33,788 nucleotides of DNA from Balneolia bacterium (GTDB lineage: Bacteria; Bacteroidota; Rhodothermia; Balneolales; Cyclonatronaceae): positions 1 to 33,788 of the forward strand of contig PWID01000121.1 of NCBI GenBank assembly GCA_003555145.1. The letters are read 5' to 3'. A program made the position numbers and the translations under genes. How positions within the stretch are numbered: position 1 is the first letter of the stretch; each line of letters begins with the position of its first letter. Positions 7,628 to 20,604 of this stretch are shown here, piece after piece. The notes beneath the pieces are model-generated. The model did no database searches and was not told the origin of the DNA. It worked only from the letters and a program-made list of their open reading frames with translations.

Positions 7628-8686
7628 CTAAAATTTGTAGGATACCTGTACGCCCGGATTTCCGCCAGGCATCAGCGCGGCCGATGTTTCCATATTGCGC
7701 CTGTGGTTGCGCAGCTGAGATGTAAACAAGGCATCAAAAGCTGAAACCACATGATTGGCAATTAATAGCATGCCCATATTACGCGAATAGCGCAGCATGT
7801 CGTTAAAATCTTCTTCGAGCGCGGTGTGATAACGCCAGCTTGCCGGCATATCGTCTATACCCCCATCAATTATGCTCATATCCCGGTTCCAGTCGCGCCA
7901 GCCCGGTCCGTACTGAAAGTACTTGCTCGGCAGCTCGTAGTACTGCTGCGAACCATAGGCAGGAACAACGTGCGAAAACGGCCGGCCCGTAGACCGGTAC
8001 AGCGTGTTGAATTCGAGCTCGTTAAGGGCTCCCAGATCAATCATGGCCCAGTCGATATCGTTGTTGAAGGTCGGGCGTATAAAGCCGTTATTCATTAACT
8101 CCTGCATGCCGGCCTCGGTAACAACGTCGGCCATAGATGCATCGACCTGGGTATAGTTAACCACAAACTGTGCGTACTGCACAACGCTCCAGTGATCATC
8201 GGCATATTGGTTGTAATCGCGCTGCCAGCGGTCGCCCGTGTTGCGGTAGTCTATCATAAGATACAGCGTTGTTATTTCAACACCTGCGAATAGTGCGGTC
8301 TTCCACCACTGCTGGTTGGCTGCCTGACCAAATCCGGGGAGAATTGCCGACGAAAGAAAGGCCAGTCCCGGCGTTTCTGCGATGGTGTTCATAAATGAAC
8401 GGCGTCCGGCTCCGGTTTCCTCGGCGTACATGCGTCCGAAAGAACGCACATCCATAGCCGTAAAATCTGCCGAAGCGTTGTAAGAAAAGGTGATGGCTTC
8501 TGTGGCTTCATCATCCTTTGGCAAAAAGGCGTTCAGTTCACTTTCTGAAACCAGACTGCCGAGCTGCTGAATGTCGGAATTACCAGAAAAATAGGATGAT
8601 GAAAACTGTGCATTAGCCGACGAAGCCAGAAGTAAAAACAGCCCGGTTGCAAAACAAGCGGTAAATAAACGCAGATGTTTTAACAT
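7628..8686 (-). CDS. DUF5683-like envelope protein
   Basis: Protein of 352 residues with a clear signal peptide (cleavage expected after SSANA, residue 26). The core has the motif SAILPGFGQAANQQWWKTAL at about 113-132, followed by a hydrophobic segment LFAGVEITTLYLMI. Near the C-terminus there is an IANHVVSAFDALFTSQL helix. This pairing of an LPG-GQ motif with an N-VxxxDA helix is typical of DUF5683-like proteins of Bacteroidota, whose function is unknown. The end ...GVQVSYKF looks like an outer-membrane strand. It is the last gene of the porU-led run, 50 bases after the protease-barrel gene. Confidence 0.65.
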   Translation of the reverse strand: MLKHLRLFTACFATGLFLLLASSANAQFSSSYFSGNSDIQQLGSLVSESELNAFLPKDDEATEAITFSYNASADFTAMDVRSFGRMYAEETGAGRRSFMNTIAETPGLAFLSSAILPGFGQAANQQWWKTALFAGVEITTLYLMIDYRNTGDRWQRDYNQYADDHWSVVQYAQFVVNYTQVDASMADVVTEAGMQELMNNGFIRPTFNNDIDWAMIDLGALNELEFNTLYRSTGRPFSHVVPAYGSQQYYELPSKYFQYGPGWRDWNRDMSIIDGGIDDMPASWRYHTALEEDFNDMLRYSRNMGMLLIANHVVSAFDALFTSQLRNHRRNMETSAALMPGGNPGVQVSYKF

Positions 8687-8736: not shown

Positions 8737-11700
8737 CTAAAGCTCGAAGTCGAACAGAACACCAAAGTTAAACAGGATTTCCCCTCCAAACCGAACGGCA
8801 TCGCGTTGGTCGGCGCTCACAAAGCCTTCAGGCACGCGCAGGTCAAAGCGATCAAAGCCATAGGCACCGCTCACAAAAAACTTGGTCGGGAACAGGTAAA
8901 ATGAATTGATTGCAATCCTTAGTTCAGCCCCGACTCCGGTTTTGATATTGTCTCCAATAGCAAGAGGTCCGCCCCAGCCGTTGCCGGCCTCGGCGAAGAA
9001 GCGGGTGTAAATTTTATCGAGCGTAAACTGCCCGCTCTGTCGGTTGATGTTCGTAAGAACCGGCTGATAGTACGATAGCTGAGCAAATGCAGTACGGTTA
9101 CCGCCGAGGGCAAAAAACGGATAGCTGCGCATGCCGTCGAAACCGCCGATGTAATCGAGAAAGAAATATTCATCCGGATTATCGAAATAGCTGAATAGCC
9201 TCGTGCGTGCCTGAAAAACCCGTTGAAACGGCCCCATAAATCCGTATCGGGCATCCAGCTCAACAGAATGATTCTTGAAGCTGTTATACACCGGAATAAG
9301 CGTCCCGTCCCGGATTTCATAATTATCGAGCAGCCTTCCCGGTTGGTAGTTGTACCTGATGTGCCCCCGGAACCCAATCGGAGCGATATCGCTGTGCCGG
9401 TAGGGCAGATATGCATCAACTACGTAGGCTGCAGTTAAGGTATTACCAATAAAGTAGCGTGATGTGGATCCCGGCACAAATTCATTAAACTCATTGGAGA
9501 AAAACGATTGAGTTGAAACGCGGTAGGGCGTGTGATGAAGCCCGAGCTGAACCAGGCTGTACCGGTTAATTTTGCTGTAAAGATTGATTTCAGCCTGCCA
9601 GATGTCGTAGGCTATATCGATGTTGGTAGTATCGGGCAGACAGGCAGTACATGCAAACTCTTCGATTTCGAGCCCGTTTTTAACGTTACGCCTCAGGTTG
9701 TACAATCCAATCTCAATAGTTGGCGACCAGTGGCGTTCAATGAAAGGCAAACCGTTGTATTCAATGAGAAGAAACAGGTCGCGATCCAGATCAACCAGGC
9801 GTCCGGGACGGAAGAAGTCGTTAACGGTCTCAGCATCACGGGAGGCGGGCCCGATTAGCATACCGCCAAAAATACTGATCCGGTCGAGCATTTCGCGCGA
9901 GCTCATGTAGAAACCAAGCTTCGTATCACGCAAAACGTTGCGGCCTAAATCTCCGAAATTCCCGGCTTTTATGAGCGATGAGTTGCTCCCGAACTCCTGA
10001 GAGTAGTTATCGAACCGAACAGCCGGCAGAAAGCTGAAGGAGACAAACTCATCATCATAAGAGTAAAAGCTACGGTTGGAAGATTGGCCGCGTGTAGCGA
10101 GACTGAAGTCGTATGAACCGCTGCTTGCCAGCTCATATTTTTCCGGAGAGAATGATGAAATGTCGGTATCGTCGAAAGCATTCAGCGGGTTGGCTTCGGT
10201 ATCGGGGCGCTGGGGCGGGCCAAATGCCGGACGCTCTGCAAGGCGCTGATTTGCAGCATGTTCGATTAAATTATCCATACTCGCCTGACGAATTTTGTAG
10301 CCGTCCCAGGTGAACTCGGAGTAGAGGAGCTCGCCTTCAGCATTCACATGAGGCATGAACGCGCCCCCAATTACATCAGTGAGCTGCTGCGGCTCGCCGC
10401 CTTCATTCAGGTTGAGACGGTAGATATCAAACTTGTGGTTAAAGTCGGCTGCGAAGTAAAGGAAGGTGCCGTCTGGCGAAACAAACGGATCGCGAAAATC
10501 GATGGAGTCATCCCGTAAAATTACATCATACTGACCAGGCTGCTGCGGATTAAAAGCGATTATATCACGTCCCTTCTGTCCGCTTTTGGCCACGAAAATC
10601 CGGCTGCCGTCGGGCGACCAGGTCGGGCGGTAAAGCTGTTCGCTTCGGTCGAACTCACTGATTTGGGTAACATCGCCGGTTTCCGGATTGACGAGCACCA
10701 GATTCAGGCTGCCGTCTCTGGACTGAAGAGCTGCCAGCTTGCTGCCGTCGGGGCTCCATGAGGGTTCGCTGAGGCGGGCATCCTGGGTTAGTTTACGGCT
10801 GTCTTCCTCAGCCACATCATAAATATAAATGTCGTTGTAGGTTTCGCCGTAGCGATTCTGACGGATGTGATTATATGCAATCTTTGAGCCATCAGGAGAA
10901 AAGCTGTAGCCGCTGCCAATCCTGCTGATAAGCGGCGTGGAGTGCATGCCGCAGCTATGTAAAAAGCTGCCGGTGCCGGACGGCGACTGCTCTGCATCAC
11001 CGGTATCAAAAAGCTGGCGCTGACGGCCCTCTTCATCGAGCACGATGAGGCTGGTGCGCGCAAAATCGAAGAACGTATTGCTCAGAAAAGCAACGTCACC
11101 ATCGGGCGTGAAGCTCGGGTGTATATTGATAAATCCCAGGTCGAAAACTTTCTCGGACTCATTTGGGGTGATGTTAGATGCGTAATCTGAATATTCGGCT
11201 CTGAGGCTTTCAATCCAGTCGCTGTAAATTTCCTCACCGGGAATTCCTGTGACACGGCGCATAGCGGTGCGGATATCGTTTGTGCGCTGCAGGCCATGGG
11301 TGATGTCTGCAATAACCTGCTCGCCAAAGCGATCGGCCAGATAGCGCGTGAACGCAAATCCCTGATTGTAGGCGAGCTCGCGCTCCATGCTGGTCTTGGA
11401 TGAAAAGTGCCCCATTTCGACCAGGCCGAGCTGCTTGTCTTCCAAAATCCGGGTGCGAATCATCATATCGCGGTGGGTATCCCAGAAGTCGTAGTGCAGA
11501 TCCTGGCGCATGAACTGAGCCGTTCCTTCGGCAAACCATGCCGGAACGCTCACGGTCGAAAACGGATAGCTTATAATGCCCGACGGATAGCCGTAGAGCA
11601 CATCAGGGCGGCGAACGTTCTCATAGGAAAGCCACTGCACGTAACTGATCGGCCGGGTTCGGCTTCCGCTCATGGACGCCTGAATCTGAACGATGTGGGT

Positions 11701-12141
11701 GAATTCGTGGGCGATTACGTCGCGCAGCCAGTTATTCGTACCGCGAAAAGGTGTATCGAGAGACGGGAGCCAGATCTCAATTTTGTTGTCGAAGAAATAG
11801 GCGGCGCCGTTTGAGTAATCTTCCCGGTCGATCAGCACAATGCTTATGGGGATATCCGGCTCATAATCATACAGCTCGGTGATGTCGGTCCAGATTTCTT
11901 CGGAGATTCTGGAAATGACCTGAGCGGGACGGTCGTTGCCCTCCTGGAAATGCACCAGAAAATGATCGCTGCTGATAGTGAACCAGTCCAGATGGTTGTG
12001 CGGATACTTCAGGTAGGCTGGCCGCTGCTGGGCGTCACTCTGGTAAACGTCCGTAAGGGCAGGACCAATCAGCGCAATGGCGACTGCTGCAAAAAAGCCT
12101 TTCAGAAAACGTTTGGTGTTGGTTGAACCGGAAAAAATCAT
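8737..12141 (-). CDS. Peptidase-MA / TolB-like propeller / outer-membrane barrel fusion protein
   Basis: Protein of 1134 residues with several modules. After a signal sequence (about 10-35), a gluzincin-type peptidase domain carries HEFTH at 145-149 and a downstream Glu in WFAEGTAQF (E205), so it looks catalytically competent. Next come WD40/TolB-like propeller blades with repeated [ST]PDG motifs (about 330-620). The C-terminal ~400 residues are rich in alternating aromatic strands (GGFDGMRSYPFFALGGNR, then FAEAGNGWGG, ending FGVLFDFEL), as in BamA-like surface-antigen barrels. It is therefore predicted to sit in the outer membrane with the protease in the periplasm or at the surface. The ATG at 12139-12141 avoids overlap with the previous gene (stop at 12162). 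A 37-residue extension was rejected. Confidence 0.82.
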   Translation of the reverse strand: MIFSGSTNTKRFLKGFFAAVAIALIGPALTDVYQSDAQQRPAYLKYPHNHLDWFTISSDHFLVHFQEGNDRPAQVISRISEEIWTDITELYDYEPDIPISIVLIDREDYSNGAAYFFDNKIEIWLPSLDTPFRGTNNWLRDVIAHEFTHIVQIQASMSGSRTRPISYVQWLSYENVRRPDVLYGYPSGIISYPFSTVSVPAWFAEGTAQFMRQDLHYDFWDTHRDMMIRTRILEDKQLGLVEMGHFSSKTSMERELAYNQGFAFTRYLADRFGEQVIADITHGLQRTNDIRTAMRRVTGIPGEEIYSDWIESLRAEYSDYASNITPNESEKVFDLGFINIHPSFTPDGDVAFLSNTFFDFARTSLIVLDEEGRQRQLFDTGDAEQSPSGTGSFLHSCGMHSTPLISRIGSGYSFSPDGSKIAYNHIRQNRYGETYNDIYIYDVAEEDSRKLTQDARLSEPSWSPDGSKLAALQSRDGSLNLVLVNPETGDVTQISEFDRSEQLYRPTWSPDGSRIFVAKSGQKGRDIIAFNPQQPGQYDVILRDDSIDFRDPFVSPDGTFLYFAADFNHKFDIYRLNLNEGGEPQQLTDVIGGAFMPHVNAEGELLYSEFTWDGYKIRQASMDNLIEHAANQRLAERPAFGPPQRPDTEANPLNAFDDTDISSFSPEKYELASSGSYDFSLATRGQSSNRSFYSYDDEFVSFSFLPAVRFDNYSQEFGSNSSLIKAGNFGDLGRNVLRDTKLGFYMSSREMLDRISIFGGMLIGPASRDAETVNDFFRPGRLVDLDRDLFLLIEYNGLPFIERHWSPTIEIGLYNLRRNVKNGLEIEEFACTACLPDTTNIDIAYDIWQAEINLYSKINRYSLVQLGLHHTPYRVSTQSFFSNEFNEFVPGSTSRYFIGNTLTAAYVVDAYLPYRHSDIAPIGFRGHIRYNYQPGRLLDNYEIRDGTLIPVYNSFKNHSVELDARYGFMGPFQRVFQARTRLFSYFDNPDEYFFLDYIGGFDGMRSYPFFALGGNRTAFAQLSYYQPVLTNINRQSGQFTLDKIYTRFFAEAGNGWGGPLAIGDNIKTGVGAELRIAINSFYLFPTKFFVSGAYGFDRFDLRVPEGFVSADQRDAVRFGGEILFNFGVLFDFEL

Positions 12142-12161: not shown

Positions 12162-15100
12162 TTATCGGATTACAGCAATTTTGATGAGTCGGGTTTCTTC
12201 GCGTCCGCTTTGTGAAGCTCGTACGCGGGCATAATACACGCCGCTGCTCCATCCGGAGGTGTCGACCAGAACTTCTTCGGGCGTTCCGCCGCGCGACTGC
12301 ACCCGGCGCTCAAAAACCCTGGTGCCGCTCATGTTGGAAACGGTAATGGTGATGTCGGCCTCGCCGCTGGTTTGATACCTGATCCAGGTTTCATTTGTTG
12401 CAGGGTTTGGCCAGTTGTACGTTTCATCAGCATTCAGAAGCCCGAATCCTGCTACCGGCTGCCCGCCTGATGGCACATCGGCCGTTATCTTATTACCCGG
12501 ATCGTTGCCATAAACGGAGCCCCAGAAAACTTCCCCGGTTCCGTCCAGTTCCCAGATTTTAAGGTCGCCGGCCGAACTGACGGCATACAGCAAGTTGTCC
12601 CTCAGAACCGGCTGCAGGGGGAATTCCAGCGGATCATCAGAAAGAGAACCGACGTAGAGCGGAAAACCGTCAATAGGGTTGAGACGATAGTCGAAAGCAT
12701 GAATGATGTACGACAGGCTGTCTGCAGACGGAACAATAAGGTCTGCGCGGCCATCGCCCGTAATGTCGGCTACAATCGGAGTAGACAGAAACCGCTGCCC
12801 GTCGGGTGCATCAAGAGGGAAATCCCAGAGGAAAGCCCCGTTATCGTTACGCCCTTCAAGACGGTTTTCGTTGTAATTAATGAATAGAAAGTCGAGCGAT
12901 CCATCATCGTTGAAATCAACCAGCGCGGGCCAGCTGAGACCCGGATATCCGGATGTTTCAGCAAGGGTGATGTCATCGCGGGAGTCTTCTGCCAGAAGGG
13001 TGATTTCAGTATCGGTTATGAGCAGGGGCTGTGGCAATGCATCTGCGTTTATCCTCACGGTAGCTGCATACATTCTCGATCCTTGTCCGGAACCAACATT
13101 CCTGCTGATACGTCCGTCGGTGGTTATGAGCTGTCCGTTTTCGATAATGGTCTGCACACCGCCAACGACTGCACTCTGCTGAAAACCACCGGTTACGAGC
13201 TGAAGATCACCGGTTTGTGCATTAAGTCGTGCGGGCGTGGTATCAATATCAATTAGCTGACCATCGACGGTGGAGGGGATGCCAAAAACGGCCTCCGGAA
13301 TGCCAGTTTGCCAAATTGTTTCGAAAGTACCGGCGGACTCATCATACTGAAAAAATGAAGCGGTAAATCCATCGGATTCTTCGCTAACGGTAAGTACGCC
13401 CTCATTCGTAAACAATGGCATGCCGGTGCCGGAAGGTAAATCAATGCGGCCGGATTCATCGATTCCGGATTCATCGTTTAAAGGAAAAGTTGTAACTGAG
13501 TTAAGACTCGGGACCAGCAAAAACGGAGTTCCCTGCGAAGAGGTATAAAGCGAAGGTGACTGTGGCCAGGCATAAAAAAGTCCGTCCATTTGCCCGTATC
13601 CCGATCCGATGTTTCCTTCATAAAGCAGGTTCACGGTTTCTGATGAAGCCGTTCTGGCGCGGAATGAAGAAACAGGGAGATTCTCAGAAAAATCGTAAAA
13701 CTCAAAAAAGGTGCTGCTGCCCGTGTTGCTTCGGTTATTTGGGAAGGTGTCGTCAGCGAATCGGTTTTCATAGAGCACAATACGCCGGCCGGTTGGCGTA
13801 ATCACCGTAAAGTCGTTGCCCGACCACCAGAAGTCGAACGGTCCGCCGTTGGAAAAGTTAGTGAGCCCCTGCGCCGGGCGGCCAATATCCTGAGCTCCAT
13901 CGGCCTCCTGAAGCGCGATACCGCGTCTGTCAGGATTATTGTTGATGGCGTTGTCGTCGATTGTATTTCTGATGACAGCCTCATCGATGTGCCAGATGAG
14001 CATACCGCCGTTCAGGATGCGGTCGTCATCAGAGCCGATAATGCCGTCTTCACCAACATCGAGTCCGCCGGGAAGGCTCCAGTCGAAGTTGCTCACGTTC
14101 ACAAGCACGCCTGCGGGAAAAATTTCGTCGTAATCGCTCTGATCTGTAGGCGAGAAGCGCTCTTCCTCGTTATCAAACGTTCGGGTTTCTATGGAGCCGT
14201 CAGGCAGGCGAAAGGTTAGCTCAACGCCTGTGCCGAGAGGATCACGGTGGCGGTTTTCAACCAGAAAGTACTCATCGGTTGAAATCCGGTGGCGGGCAAC
14301 CCGCTCTGTTCCGCCAAGCCCTACAGCAGGAAGGGTGACGGGCTCATCATCATTTAAAGAAATATCAAACGGATTATCCCAGCCCATGTAAATGCGCTCC
14401 CAGGCGGAGGGAAGAGGCGGAAAAAGGCCATAGTAGGAGAAAATTCCGGCCCCGTCCATTAGACCGAACTGACCAATTCCTGATGCTCCGGTTTCGGTAT
14501 TGAACAGATCTGGTATACCAAGAAAGCTGCCAACGTTGGCCGTCAGGATTCCGTTGATGGAGAGCTGAAGCACGATTTCGGCGCCGGTAACGTCTTCACC
14601 CCGTCTCGACTGCGTTTGCGGAAGGATGGCAGAGTTCGTAACGCGAGGTCCGCCCGGAAGCGGAATGCCGTCGAAGTCTGGTCCGGCTGATGAAGACAAA
14701 CGGGTTATAGCACCACGATCCAGAAAAACGGAGGGTATATCCTGAGGGGTATTATCCAGAATTGTACCGACAAGCTCAATATCTCGACCGGCACCTGCAT
14801 GAAATATTACAAACATGGTGCGATCCTGAGGCAGGAAGCTAAGATCCGGCAGGTTAGAATTGGCAACCATAGTCCAGGTATCATAAAATAAATCGCCCAG
14901 ACGAAAATTTTCGCTGTCATCGGGTCCCGTGGGCGAATACTCTCGCATGGGTTGGTTCAGGCGGTAAACCTGCGGAAGAACCGTGTATTCAATGTCCAGC
15001 AGACCGCTTGATGCCTGCTGAAAATAGTTTACTGCAAAATCCAGATGGGCTTCAAAGTAGCCCTGATCGTGGGGCAGCGGATCGATAATGATATCGTCGC

Positions 15101-15377
15101 GCATCAGGTATTCCAGCTCGAATGTACCGTCTCCTGAAGTGAAGCGGTTGTCTTCAGGCTCAAACTCAACCATCACCGCGAGAATATGAATTGTGCCCTG
15201 TGAAATAGGATCGTTTAATTCAGCAGGCAGGCTGCTTAGCTCAGCGATATCAAATGGTTTGTAGGCAGGAAACGGGGTTGCCTGTTCCTGTGACTGTGCG
15301 AATGAGGAGCCGTAAATACAAAACAGAAGAATACCCGCAAGGGATATTCTTCTGCTAAGCTGGAAGAAATGGAGCAT
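12162..15377 (-). CDS. T9SS-sorted M6-like pseudoprotease with FG-GAP repeats
   Basis: Protein of 1071 residues. Signal peptide 1-27 (GSSFAQ). Residues about 60-540 follow the M6 (InhA-like) metalloprotease fold: ILAVMVEF, a GxxxLGIPDLF segment, FGLMDGAGIFSYYG, SAWERIYMGW and the hallmark GGMLIWHIDEAVI. The zinc motif HExxHxxGxxD reads ANVGSFLGIPD at 280-290, so both His and the Glu are lost and only Gly and Asp remain. Two FG-GAP-like calcium motifs follow, DFNDDGSLD (821-829) and DITGDGRAD (871-879). A T9SS type A sorting domain covers about 985-1071 (YNWPNPATNETWIRYQ, then SGVYYARV). It is predicted to be exported through T9SS and processed by PorU, encoded two genes upstream. The gap to porV is 35 bases. 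Confidence 0.88.
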   Translation of the reverse strand: MLHFFQLSRRISLAGILLFCIYGSSFAQSQEQATPFPAYKPFDIAELSSLPAELNDPISQGTIHILAVMVEFEPEDNRFTSGDGTFELEYLMRDDIIIDPLPHDQGYFEAHLDFAVNYFQQASSGLLDIEYTVLPQVYRLNQPMREYSPTGPDDSENFRLGDLFYDTWTMVANSNLPDLSFLPQDRTMFVIFHAGAGRDIELVGTILDNTPQDIPSVFLDRGAITRLSSSAGPDFDGIPLPGGPRVTNSAILPQTQSRRGEDVTGAEIVLQLSINGILTANVGSFLGIPDLFNTETGASGIGQFGLMDGAGIFSYYGLFPPLPSAWERIYMGWDNPFDISLNDDEPVTLPAVGLGGTERVARHRISTDEYFLVENRHRDPLGTGVELTFRLPDGSIETRTFDNEEERFSPTDQSDYDEIFPAGVLVNVSNFDWSLPGGLDVGEDGIIGSDDDRILNGGMLIWHIDEAVIRNTIDDNAINNNPDRRGIALQEADGAQDIGRPAQGLTNFSNGGPFDFWWSGNDFTVITPTGRRIVLYENRFADDTFPNNRSNTGSSTFFEFYDFSENLPVSSFRARTASSETVNLLYEGNIGSGYGQMDGLFYAWPQSPSLYTSSQGTPFLLVPSLNSVTTFPLNDESGIDESGRIDLPSGTGMPLFTNEGVLTVSEESDGFTASFFQYDESAGTFETIWQTGIPEAVFGIPSTVDGQLIDIDTTPARLNAQTGDLQLVTGGFQQSAVVGGVQTIIENGQLITTDGRISRNVGSGQGSRMYAATVRINADALPQPLLITDTEITLLAEDSRDDITLAETSGYPGLSWPALVDFNDDGSLDFLFINYNENRLEGRNDNGAFLWDFPLDAPDGQRFLSTPIVADITGDGRADLIVPSADSLSYIIHAFDYRLNPIDGFPLYVGSLSDDPLEFPLQPVLRDNLLYAVSSAGDLKIWELDGTGEVFWGSVYGNDPGNKITADVPSGGQPVAGFGLLNADETYNWPNPATNETWIRYQTSGEADITITVSNMSGTRVFERRVQSRGGTPEEVLVDTSGWSSGVYYARVRASQSGREETRLIKIAVIR

Positions 15378-15412: not shown

Positions 15413-16528
15413 TCAGAAATTCAGCAATACCGATAATCGGATGGTATTTGCCAAAGGGTGATCCTCCCTAATGGTATACAAATAGCTAAAATCGACACCA
15501 AACATATCGTAGCGAAGACCGGCACCAAATGTTAGGAACTGACGGTCACCATTGTTTGGGGCCTCATAAAAATAACCGGTACGAATCGCAAACTGCTGGT
15601 TGTACCAGTATTCTGCACCAATGGCGTACATAAACTGCTCGCCGAGCGGTACATCAATAAAATCTTGTCCGTCAAACCTGGTATAGGTATCCCAGGATCT
15701 GTACAGTGCTTCCATAACACCCATTGCCTGGCCTGCAGTATCGTTACGCGCCATAATTTTTGAGACATCACCGGCGAAAGTAATGGTGTTGAAACCCTGG
15801 TCGTCGAGGTCAATTTCGTATGCAACACCCATGCGCAGAAGGGTTGGAAGCGGATCACTCTGTGCATCATCGGTATACTGAATTGCCGGGCCTACATTAG
15901 AGAGGTTAATTCCAGCGCTGAACGTAGATGCGCGATCCAGAAAAACAAATTCGTTGCTGCGGTAGAGAGCAGCAAAGTCAAGTCCAACGCTTGTACCGGC
16001 TTTGGCTGTCTGTCCGCCAACATCGATATTTGGTGTAAGACGGCTGTAGATAAAGCGGAAGCCAGTACCGAGTGCCAGGTTATCAGTAACCTTGAAACCA
16101 TAGCTTAAGCCCGTTGCAAGCTCATAGCTCGAGAAGCTGCGAAGCTCCCGACCGGTTTCGTCGGTCTGAATCTGCTCGCCAAGGTTGAGGTAAGTGATGT
16201 GACCGCCAATGGTACCAATACCTTCGATGTAGGTTTTACCTACCAGATAGTTGTAGAAAAGGTCGGTGTTGAAGTTAGGCAGCCAGCTGGCATACGTTAA
16301 TGACAGCTGGGTTTCTTTTGGCTGCATAGCCAGTCCTGCGGGATTCCAGAAAACAGCGGATGCGTTATCGGCAATAGCCACGCCTGCGTTACCCATACCC
16401 GGAGTACGGGAGTCAGGCTCAATCTGCATAAAAGGGACTGCGGTAATACCTACCTGTGCAAAGCTGTATCCAGCGCCAAGGCAGACTAGCAGCATGCCCG
16501 TAAGTATTGATTTTGTTACTTGCTTCAT
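15413..16528 (-). CDS. porV: Type IX secretion outer-membrane protein PorV
   Basis: FadL-like outer-membrane barrel of 371 residues. Signal peptide with cleavage near SFAQ (residue 24). The PorV signature DSRTPGMGNAGVAIADNASA followed by FWNPAGLA is at about 39-66. The rest is amphipathic beta strands ending in TIRLSVLLNF with the terminal Phe typical of barrel proteins. PorV shuttles cargo from the SprA translocon to the PorU attachment complex by holding the C-terminal sorting domain. It lies 107 bases downstream of porU on the same strand, which agrees with joint function. No terminator is visible between them. Confidence 0.93.
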   Translation of the reverse strand: MKQVTKSILTGMLLVCLGAGYSFAQVGITAVPFMQIEPDSRTPGMGNAGVAIADNASAVFWNPAGLAMQPKETQLSLTYASWLPNFNTDLFYNYLVGKTYIEGIGTIGGHITYLNLGEQIQTDETGRELRSFSSYELATGLSYGFKVTDNLALGTGFRFIYSRLTPNIDVGGQTAKAGTSVGLDFAALYRSNEFVFLDRASTFSAGINLSNVGPAIQYTDDAQSDPLPTLLRMGVAYEIDLDDQGFNTITFAGDVSKIMARNDTAGQAMGVMEALYRSWDTYTRFDGQDFIDVPLGEQFMYAIGAEYWYNQQFAIRTGYFYEAPNNGDRQFLTFGAGLRYDMFGVDFSYLYTIREDHPLANTIRLSVLLNF

Positions 16529-16635: not shown

Positions 16636-19600
16636 TTATCGAATGATTACAAGTCGTTCAATTTTTTCCTCTGTCATACGCCCGTTTGCTCCATCGGTAC
16701 GTACGCGAAGATGGTATAAATAAGTTCCGGCTGCCAGACGGTTGTGGTCGTCGTCGCGGCCTGTCCATTCAAACATCTCCAGATTTCCGGTAGCAATCCG
16801 GCTTTCCCGGATTTGTGCGACGGGTCTTCCGGAAAGCGTATAAATACGAATAAACACATCCAGAGGCTGCCCCAGCGCCTGATTGTGTTCAAAAGCAAAC
16901 CTTGTGAAGTTATTCATCGGGTTTGGGTAATTATACACGTTTCTGATCGTAAGTTCATCACCGCCGGATACATCAAAAAAGATTTCTGATTCCCCGACAT
17001 TGTTGAAGACATCCCACACGCGAACGCTCATGGAATAGCTTCCGTCGCTTAGATTATCCAGTGGATACTCGATTTGTCCACGGGTGAAATCATCTAGCTC
17101 ACTGGAATAGAAGTCATTAAGAATAAACGTTTGTTCCTGCTGTGGATTGTCCTGATTGCGTAATATACCGATTATTTCATGCCCCACACCGGCTCCGGTA
17201 GTGTTTACGCCACCTTCGCTAAATACGTTTACATACAGCATGGGATCAGAATTTACCAGCGATCCGTTCACAAAATTATCGTCGTTCAGGTAGACATCCA
17301 GCTCCGGGCCGTCAAAAATATTTTCAGCGTCTTCATTAATCCCGTTCAGGTAGAACTGGGAAAATGAGCCGGCTGCATCAGTTCGGGTAGGATTCACTCC
17401 ATATACGTGTATACGCGCGAGCGAATCGGAATAAGCAATATCCTTAGGTACAATAAATTCAGTGCTGAATTCGCCATTGGTAATGCTTACCCGGCCGTTA
17501 AAAAGTACATCGTTCTGTACACGGAATCCGCAGCCTGGTAAAAGGTTACAGGTTACGTCCGGGTTGGGCAGAGATTCGAGACGGGAAGCATCAAATACGC
17601 GCACAAAGCCTTCACCATTAAACTGTGTATCGACCATCCCATTGGCATCGCTTACCTGACCGGTAATGCTTACACGGTCCAGCGATCGTATTTGAAGCGG
17701 GCCTTCGCTGAAGTCGCTTATTCCGTTGATACCAGTAATCTCGATTTTCTTTTCTGGAAGCCCCATGGTCATGGCCGGATCACCAAGCAGTACAAACTTA
17801 CGGCTGTTGATGCGGTTTGAGTTGGCAGCCTCATTATTTGCTGCTACAAAGTTCTTGGTATTTTTGAACACCTGGCCAATCGTTTTATTGGTACCGTCAG
17901 GATTTCGCTCAACCATCTGCCGGGTAAGCTCGATATGCAGGGCAAAGTTGTTATCCTGACCCACATTCGGGCTGCTGCTGGTAAACACCACACGCGATGT
18001 TGTTAACGAAGCAACCGCCCCGCCGTTGGTGTGGTTTATGAGCTTTTCTGCACCTGAGAAGTCAACGTTATCATCATAACGCCCAAATGAACAGGTAGCC
18101 GTTACCATAATGAACGGTCTGTTCTTGTTGGTAAGCCTCGGAATATCCGACGACTGAAATAAGCGCTGCTGGGTGAGCTGCTGCTCGCTCCCGTGTCCGG
18201 AGAAGTGAAGGGTGAGGGTACCGTTGTTAATTTGATTTACCAGAGCCGTGGTGGCCTGTGGTACACGCTGGCCGGCCGGAGTGTTCTCAACCGGATAGCT
18301 GAACTGGTACAATTTGCGCACCCGGATTCCGCTGTCATCCTCATCGATAGTTTCGGCCGTGAAGTCGGCGTTGAATGTATGAAGATCGCGGTCGTTGCTT
18401 TGTCCGTTTACGTTATCATCAGCCGTGAAAGTAAAAAGAGTGCGCCAGTCGCCGGCCTGCTCAAGGTTTTCAAATGCTATTACCTTATCGACCATGTTGT
18501 TGGCCTGATCCAGATTTTGCACCGGGAAACGCCCAATCTGGATATCCAGACGGTTGTTCTGATCCTGACGTCTCCAGGACCCTTCATCATCACCTAAGAA
18601 CGCAAAGAAATCGTCGCTGCCGTAGGTGTCGACTCTGGATAGGTTATCATTATCCACATAATGCTGAAAGTTGAAGACCAGGTTCTGCATGGGCGAACTT
18701 TCTATGCCTTTATAATCGAAGGTAGCGTTACCAAACAGAACGAGATATTTGGGCATTAGCTCATCATCCAGCCCTGCAAGATCATACAGGTACTTCATGA
18801 AATCGCGAATGGCTACGGGATCGGCTACTCCGCCGTTAAATTCATTAAAAATTTGTCTCTGGGTTACTATTAACGGGCGAAGACCGTTTCGGGCAGCGCG
18901 ATAATCGGCAAGTCTCTGAGCTGCATCAACCATGGACTCATGAGTTACGATTATGTAATCCGGATAAAAATTAGTGCCGCTCAGATTCTGATTGGCAATC
19001 TGGCTTCCCATGGCCGGGGTAAGAAAACGTGTTGCAGCAATTAGTTGCCGCCCCGGGCTGTACAGGTATCGGGCCGACCAGTTGTTTCCGCTGCCTTCAG
19101 CAGGAATAAGAACCGGGTTCGCGGGGTTCGTAACGTCCATTACAAGCGGTGCCGAACTGAACCCATTAAAAACATAGCGCGCAATCTGGTTGGTGCTTTC
19201 TGAATTATCTGGCGACAAGAACTCCAGAATGCCGTTGTTCGGAGCCAGAAGACGGGTGGCACGTACATGTATAAAATCAACCCAGCCTCTGGAATCCGGT
19301 GAAGTAGGGCTATACTGAGCCTGAATCTGAATGCGGTCGTTCTCAAGATTCACATTGTTTAGTTGCCGGGTGATGTTACCCAGGTTGGCCGCACGCCCTG
19401 TGGCAGAAATAAGATTTGTTATAGGGGCTATGGTGATAGAACCCGCATTCTGACTGCCGCGTGTAAAACTAAACGAAGAAGAGGTTCTGGATCGTGCACC
19501 CATTCGTGCACGGAACTCAATATCGCTGCCTTGTACGAAGCCGGCCAGGGTATCTGTAAAAACGGTCTGATCCCGGAATTCAGGCGTAAAGAGCTGACCA

Positions 19601-20604
19601 AACCAAAAGGTACCAGATCGCTGCTGGGATTCGGGCATATATAAATCCTGCTCAAGCCACCTGAAATCACGGAATTGAGTAATGTCCTGCGTTACAGAAC
19701 CGGAGGCCTGAAAAGGTGCAAGACGAAGGCCCTGCTCCTGGCCAACCGTAATGAACACATAGTTCTGAGTGTCGTAGGCGTGCAGGTTATGATCCCATTC
19801 CAGGGTGGAAGGATTAAAAATGCGCTGATTTATATCGTTTGCGTAAAAAACGACGGCATCTCCACTGCCAAAGTTTCCGTCCGACTCGCCTTCCACAATT
19901 ACCGGTATCTGAGCGAATGACGGGCGTTCGTCGGCGTTGGCTTTTGGAAGCTCATATCCCGGGGTGCCCCAAACCTGGATATTTCTCGGATCGATACTAT
20001 CGGTATTAATACCAAGATCTCTGAGGTAGGTTCTGTTTAGGCGATAGATGCCATTTTTGCCAATAGGAATACGGTACCATGTACCGCTGCTAAGCGGGTG
20101 TGACTGGGCGGACTGTGTTCGTGCAGCAGCTTCGGAAGCGCGGCGAGACCAGGTCTGATCGTTGTAAACGCGAATTCTGATGTTGCGAGCTACCAGGAAA
20201 CTACTGCTGTCGTTCAGATCCTGGCGCGAAACATGCAGCATCAGCGTAGACTGGTACTGCTTTCTGTATTCGTGCACCGGACTTGCCGAAACGAGTGGCT
20301 CGGACGTAGATGGTATGATGGCCATCAGGTCTTCGTCTGAACCAATCTGTTGGTTCGCAAGCTGAGGACTGCTGGTTCGTACGATATCCTGCTGCAAAAT
20401 TCTGTAGCGAAGTTCGCCTTCACGAGAAGGAACATTCAGGAATTGGGGAGCCGCAATTTTGAGGCTGTCGTTGCGATACTCGTAATCGGTAAACTCAGAG
20501 GTTTCCTGTATGATGCGAAACTGCTGTGCATGTAATTCGACTGATGCCAGTCCGGTTAACATCAACAGAATAAATGCGCGAAGTAAGATGTGCACGGTAT
20601 TCAA
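16636..20604 (-). CDS. porU: Type IX secretion sortase PorU (C25 gingipain-like)
   Basis: Protein of 1322 residues. PorU cleaves the C-terminal sorting domain of T9SS cargo and links cargo to the cell surface. Signal peptide about 1-26 (SVELHA). An N-terminal beta domain precedes the C25 cysteine-protease domain (about 545-940). The catalytic His lies in LHFSGHGSEQQ (H804) and the catalytic Cys in MVTATCSFGRYD (C838, codon 18091-18093). Both are intact. The last ~99 residues (from Y1224, YNYPNPMNNFTRF) form its own FlgD-like/T9SS C-terminal domain, as PorU proteins usually keep. The start codon is TTG (20602-20604) or the GTG three codons later; no ATG fits. It probably heads the block running down to 7628. 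Confidence 0.92.
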   Translation of the reverse strand: MNTVHILLRAFILLMLTGLASVELHAQQFRIIQETSEFTDYEYRNDSLKIAAPQFLNVPSREGELRYRILQQDIVRTSSPQLANQQIGSDEDLMAIIPSTSEPLVSASPVHEYRKQYQSTLMLHVSRQDLNDSSSFLVARNIRIRVYNDQTWSRRASEAAARTQSAQSHPLSSGTWYRIPIGKNGIYRLNRTYLRDLGINTDSIDPRNIQVWGTPGYELPKANADERPSFAQIPVIVEGESDGNFGSGDAVVFYANDINQRIFNPSTLEWDHNLHAYDTQNYVFITVGQEQGLRLAPFQASGSVTQDITQFRDFRWLEQDLYMPESQQRSGTFWFGQLFTPEFRDQTVFTDTLAGFVQGSDIEFRARMGARSRTSSSFSFTRGSQNAGSITIAPITNLISATGRAANLGNITRQLNNVNLENDRIQIQAQYSPTSPDSRGWVDFIHVRATRLLAPNNGILEFLSPDNSESTNQIARYVFNGFSSAPLVMDVTNPANPVLIPAEGSGNNWSARYLYSPGRQLIAATRFLTPAMGSQIANQNLSGTNFYPDYIIVTHESMVDAAQRLADYRAARNGLRPLIVTQRQIFNEFNGGVADPVAIRDFMKYLYDLAGLDDELMPKYLVLFGNATFDYKGIESSPMQNLVFNFQHYVDNDNLSRVDTYGSDDFFAFLGDDEGSWRRQDQNNRLDIQIGRFPVQNLDQANNMVDKVIAFENLEQAGDWRTLFTFTADDNVNGQSNDRDLHTFNADFTAETIDEDDSGIRVRKLYQFSYPVENTPAGQRVPQATTALVNQINNGTLTLHFSGHGSEQQLTQQRLFQSSDIPRLTNKNRPFIMVTATCSFGRYDDNVDFSGAEKLINHTNGGAVASLTTSRVVFTSSSPNVGQDNNFALHIELTRQMVERNPDGTNKTIGQVFKNTKNFVAANNEAANSNRINSRKFVLLGDPAMTMGLPEKKIEITGINGISDFSEGPLQIRSLDRVSITGQVSDANGMVDTQFNGEGFVRVFDASRLESLPNPDVTCNLLPGCGFRVQNDVLFNGRVSITNGEFSTEFIVPKDIAYSDSLARIHVYGVNPTRTDAAGSFSQFYLNGINEDAENIFDGPELDVYLNDDNFVNGSLVNSDPMLYVNVFSEGGVNTTGAGVGHEIIGILRNQDNPQQEQTFILNDFYSSELDDFTRGQIEYPLDNLSDGSYSMSVRVWDVFNNVGESEIFFDVSGGDELTIRNVYNYPNPMNNFTRFAFEHNQALGQPLDVFIRIYTLSGRPVAQIRESRIATGNLEMFEWTGRDDDHNRLAAGTYLYHLRVRTDGANGRMTEEKIERLVIIR

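Follow-up and report, generated by a model that had tools for sequence, protein, structure and literature searches.

The window, a 33,788-nucleotide stretch of DNA from a Balneolia bacterium, carries on its minus strand four genes that are transcribed in the order porU, porV, M6i and the gene for a 1.1-kaa gluzincin. PorU, the C25 sortase of the T9SS, is encoded at positions 16636–20604 (NF033707, 979 bits; PF01364, 315 bits) and PorV, the outer-membrane shuttle, at positions 15413–16528 (NF033710, 287 bits; PF19572). Both pass the NCBIfam cut-offs, which agrees with the neighbours named in an earlier, sequence-only reading of this DNA. The M6i gene (M6-like inactivated metalloprotease; positions 12162–15377) is an open reading frame of 1071 residues. 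The gluzincin, which we label MA_PD40, occupies positions 8737–12141; its reading frame opens at 12252, and the signal peptide indicates that the likely start is the ATG near 12141. The genes are closely spaced, with gaps of 107 nt between porU and porV, 35 nt between porV and M6i and, if this ATG is used, about 20 nt between M6i and the gluzincin gene. A gene for a DUF5683 protein (7628–8686, minus strand) lies directly downstream, followed by one for a PASTA-domain protein.

M6i contains a signal peptide (residues ~1–27), an M6 fold (residues ~57–585), a BamB-like propeller (residues ~600–980) and a T9SS type A C-terminal sorting domain (CTD; about residues 985–1071, positions 12162–12425 of the minus strand). 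The AlphaFold2 model has a pLDDT of 87 and a pTM of 0.87. The M6 fold is defined by this model and by a profile-profile alignment (hhalign) with active M6 proteases of the same phylum, which extends over residues 59–582 with a probability of 99.9% (E=5e-37). The landmarks FGLMDG, SAWERIYMGW and GGMLIWHIDEAVI are colinear with active M6, as had been proposed from the sequence. Against the M6 peptidase model TIGR03296, M6i scores 45.6 bits, below the cut-off of 110.8. Propellers dominate the Foldseek matches of the whole model, with PorZ (5m11) among the top ones and BamB (7nri_B) matched at a TMt of 0.64, and the M6 domain is therefore unmatched to any solved M6 structure. A phmmer search of the PDB with M6i gave no match, and a profile search of the PDB returned only CTD relatives (PorU and PorZ) and weak propeller matches. 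The Pfam model PF05547 had no match in the window's own genome in a search where the control was also unmatched anywhere. The sorting domain is intact (PF18962, 31.5 bits against a cut-off of 27; TIGR04183, 33.2 against 23), and the two FG-GAP calcium-type motifs noticed earlier, DFNDDGSLD and DITGDGRAD, lie in a protein that exceeds the cut-offs of PF13517 and PF01839.

M6i shares its fold with the M6 peptidases (TIGR03296/PF05547; InhA and PrtV) colinearly over residues 59–582 but differs from them at the zinc site, where the zinc histidine, the glutamate and the second histidine are replaced. The motif HExxHxxGxxD is substituted by A280-N-V-G-S-F-L-G-I-P-D290 (positions 14508–14540, minus strand), and the codons of ANVGS, residues 280–284, are found at 14526–14540 as had been reported. 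In the profile-profile alignment, H342, E343 and H346 of active M6 fall on A280, N281 and S284, while the structural glycine and aspartate are retained at the same positions as G287 and D290. The loss, which the sequence-only reading had asked to be sought in homologues, is conserved: HExxHxxGxxD is present in none of the 101 aligned sequences, so that no homologue has an intact HExxH in place, and no alternative HExxH is conserved elsewhere in the fold, the one HEMAH, in L079, being coincidental. The replacements follow a pattern of fixed small residues, A-[SNT]-x-x-[SN]. Position 280 is A in 87 homologues, S in 8, G in 5 and N in 1; position 281 is mainly S, N or T; position 284 is S in 77, N in 23 and G in 1; and D290 is invariant (101/101). 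The segment 280–335 is the best conserved part of the protein, with a mean pairwise identity of 68%, compared with 37–46% for the remainder of the M6 fold, 40% for the CTD and 14–25% for the propeller region in the middle. The dN/dS of the whole gene is 0.08–0.17 in the pairs with unsaturated dS, and 0.03 for residues 270–335 in one pair. Since the same replacement occurs in all 101 sequences and dN/dS is low, chance or local decay does not account for the loss; the non-random replacements, the position in the most conserved segment and the low dN/dS indicate that selection preserves the dead site. Judged at the sequence level, M6i is inactive across its whole lineage, with both zinc histidines and the glutamate gone.

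M6i belongs to the NCBIfam equivalog family NF052323, "T9SS-dependent M6-like inactivated metalloprotease" (1097 bits against a cut-off of 600, residues 57–1071), and has its inactivated M6 site and type A CTD. The core of the sequence-only reading, an inactivated T9SS-linked M6 family, is thus already catalogued by NCBI. Of the 296 genomes analysed from the phylum (Bacteroidota as GTDB broadly defines it), 115 carry M6i; 110 exceed the NF052323 cut-off and five are syntenic at 358–408 bits. The carriers span 25 GTDB families of Balneolales, Rhodothermales and Ignavibacteria/Kryptonia, and the named records come from Balneolales, Rhodothermales, Rubricoccaceae, Ignavibacteriales, Melioribacteraceae and Kryptonia. 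A FastTree phylogeny of PorV needs 5–6 changes of M6i presence, which shows that the distribution reflects more than one inherited event, even though the 296 genomes are not independent. The place of the gene after porV is conserved well beyond the window's genome: PorV is directly upstream on the same strand in 98 of the 100 loci fetched, mostly with PorU before it and the 1.1-kaa gluzincin after M6i. In one relative (G010:C29:4116-6799) M6i is divided between two frames with a TGA, either an assembly error or a real break.

MA_PD40 is composed of a signal peptide, a gluzincin domain, a TolB-like propeller and a 16-strand BamA-like barrel. It bears the HExxH and downstream glutamate of the gluzincins (Peptidase MA) as HEFTH (residues 182–186) and AEG (E242), and HExxH and W-x-AEG are intact in 88 of 88 gluzincins. 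PF13485 (Peptidase MA) detects 28 of 29 members at E<=0.01, the window protein scoring 22.9 against 32.4 bits, and no NCBIfam model matches MA_PD40 above its cut-off. In the AlphaFold2 model (pLDDT 81.5, pTM 0.81), the 16 C-terminal strands resemble the BamA barrel. The gluzincin is apparently a working outer-membrane protease.

The gluzincin, which had been missed in the sequence-only reading, is the obligate genomic partner of M6i. Its profile is bimodal over the 296 genomes: 115 score above 1000 bits, and the others score at most 172 bits and match the propeller only. These 115 genomes are identical to the 115 that carry M6i. The two genes are not adjacent in at least 12 genomes, for example in G064, where they are 862 kb apart on one contig. 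Both are missing from G055, G258, G281 and G317 (genus g20) and from G270 (genus g33), whose congeners have both. M6i is present wherever, and only where, the gluzincin is, whereas its distribution departs from those of PorU, PorZ and PorV. Mirror-tree correlations are high for all four genes (PorU, PorV, M6i and the gluzincin) and are not specific to the pair, the partial r being 0.41 for M6i–gluzincin, 0.49 for M6i–PorU and 0.62 for PorV–gluzincin. That every M6i genome also has the gluzincin suggests that M6i is its fixed non-catalytic partner.

Nine genomes that are 97–100% complete (G028, G036, G044, G047, G058, G235, G266, G297 and G305) carry M6i, PorV and the gluzincin without PorU. 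A search for C25 peptidases was negative in all nine, SprA is present in all nine, and PorZ is absent from eight and very weak in G305. M6i keeps its CTD in the PorU-less genomes examined. Type A CTD matches number 7–32 in the six PorU-less genomes checked, against 60–66 in G000 and G038. Conversely, about 91 genomes with PorU over the cut-off are devoid of M6i (197 PorU-positive genomes minus 106 with both). M6i is therefore neither dependent on the sortase nor serves it only. In the Balneolaceae genomes of records L077, L079, L150, L151, L152, L272 and L273, SprA and PorV are present alongside type A CTD proteins, but PorU and any other C25 peptidase are missing; these genomes apparently have a T9SS without its sortase. 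Culturable carriers of M6i include Gracilimonas and Rhodohalobacter, and in the Rhodohalobacter loci L224 and L244 the run of PorV, M6i and gluzincin has no PorU next to it.

The window's genome has a separate PorZ (PF21544, 49 bits, 813-aa frame; L281, G000:C43), which is unlinked to porU–porV, and PF21544, the N-terminal propeller of PorZ, has no match in M6i. M6i and PorZ are found together in most M6i genomes. As its own PorZ is present, M6i was rejected as a PorZ substitute in the window's genome.

A terminator-like hairpin with a 15-bp stem and a T-rich tail lies within the beginning of M6i (positions 15312–15356, minus strand), where it covers M6i codons ~8–22, in the signal peptide. 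The hairpin lies 56 nt past the porV stop, and its stem (15356–15322) falls in codons 8–19. The stems are too divergent between lineages for one alignment, and synonymous-codon shuffles were therefore used as the test. Under a strict rule applied to the first 60 codons, the hairpin occurs in 35 of 98 M6i loci compared with 1.3 expected from the shuffles. Among the genes of other exported proteins, the same rule finds one case in 99 porV genes, none in 81 porU genes and one in 78 gluzincin genes. The stem sequence varies by lineage, and the pairing and position are kept, mostly 20–55 nt past the porV stop; in a few lineages the hairpin precedes the M6i start and resembles an ordinary porV terminator. 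The simplest reading is that M6i overlies the terminator of porV, which would reduce its expression relative to PorV, possibly with ribosome-coupled read-through at the hairpin.

We favor, at about even confidence, a model in which M6i is a permanently inactive M6 protein that is exported by the T9SS, held by PorV and fixed as the non-catalytic partner of the downstream gluzincin. The family-wide loss of the zinc residues, the strong purifying selection with its focus at the dead site, the conserved order of the genes and the exact co-occurrence with the gluzincin, which holds at unlinked loci and in PorU-less genomes, are the observations on which this model draws. After export by the T9SS, M6i would sit on the cell surface, where its CTD and PorV would retain it at the outer membrane, and would serve the gluzincin as a substrate-docking, regulatory or assembly subunit. 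Outer-membrane barrels normally have periplasmic N-termini. The gluzincin would be an outer-membrane protein whose protease domain probably lies in the periplasm, as in BamA-type barrels. With the protease domain predicted inside and M6i outside, physical contact between M6i and an active gluzincin, both presumed in this model, would take place through the barrel or before export. The two proteins could also act in one shared pathway without touching, which would yield the same co-occurrence. In its fullest form, the model would describe a new PorV-carried complex of a dead M6 and a live gluzincin, independent of PorU and expressed below PorV by means of a terminator in the signal-peptide codons of M6i; this fuller form is tentative, and we consider it less likely than not as a whole.

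Several other roles were weighed against this model. M6i may belong structurally to the PorV attachment or translocon site itself, as a PorZ-like or scaffold subunit, with the gluzincin acting at the same site but not pairing specifically with M6i. The PorU and PorZ of P. gingivalis are CTD proteins that PorV and PorQ hold in place (PMC8545088), and M6i resembles PorZ in its plan of propeller and CTD, is encoded immediately after PorV in nearly all loci fetched and shows a partial correlation of 0.49 with PorU. However, a PorZ already exists in the window's genome, about 91 PorU-positive genomes do without M6i, and its presence follows the gluzincin exactly rather than any of the three T9SS proteins. 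We regard this role as possible but unlikely. It is also conceivable, though rather improbable, that the gluzincin has M6i as its dedicated substrate or client and processes it during or after export to yield a mature surface-binding protein, an adhesin or a carbohydrate-binding protein. The exact co-occurrence fits such a role, as do the BamB-like propeller with its FG-GAP calcium motifs and the fast evolution of the middle region, which is expected of a surface-exposed part. The conserved part of M6i, however, is the dead site and not the propeller, an unexpected pattern for a simple adhesin, and no cleavage site was identified.

The sequence-only reading had envisaged a dedicated partner of the secretion apparatus rather than a random exported enzyme. 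This is borne out by a non-catalytic M6 relative that bears a T9SS signal and has a conserved place beside porU–porV. Its further proposal, that the protein is a sortase cofactor or inhibitor, is not supported. M6i adjoins porU–porV in most loci and its distances correlate with those of PorU, but the nine near-complete genomes in which M6i persists although PorU and all other C25 peptidases are absent, together with the PorU-positive genomes that do without it, make a role as PorU cofactor or inhibitor very improbable. Scarcely credible is a catalytic M6i that employs a different metal site. In its favour stand the residues H193, D290, D308, E374, E491 and D515, none of which varies, and the nearly invariant H463; against it, there is no conserved alternative HExxH, and H193, E374, H463 and E491 appear to be structural because the segments in which they lie also match active M6 proteins.

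An inactive and an active metallopeptidase are paired in the alpha and beta subunits of the M16 protein MPP. In M16 alpha/beta MPP, the M16B heterosubunits and FtsHi, a dead homologue likewise acts as a subunit or regulator, whereas the dead M6 and the live gluzincin of the present pair come from different peptidase families. The use of inactive metallopeptidase homologues as subunits or regulators has been reviewed (PMC11266112). PorZ is likewise a surface CTD protein with a β-propeller at the PorV/PorQ site (PMC8545088), but it has no M6 domain and is a separate gene in the same genome; and in contrast to the components of the attachment complex, M6i does not require the co-occurrence of PorU. 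The model name of NF052323 is silent on the gluzincin partner, the PorU-independent genomes and the hairpin. No paper on this family was found in the literature searched, in which the obligate partner, the PorU independence and the hairpin also appear to be unreported. Because the pseudoprotease family has already been named by NCBI, the value of the present analysis lies in these three features.

What is known of the T9SS comes mostly from Porphyromonas and Flavobacterium. Two further genes, which are gained and lost together and persist after the loss of PorU, are found at the porV locus in Balneolales, Rhodothermales and Ignavibacteria. This opens the testable question of what role PorV has besides feeding the sortase, and offers a pseudoenzyme/enzyme pair from two peptidase families with natural sortase-less genomes as controls.
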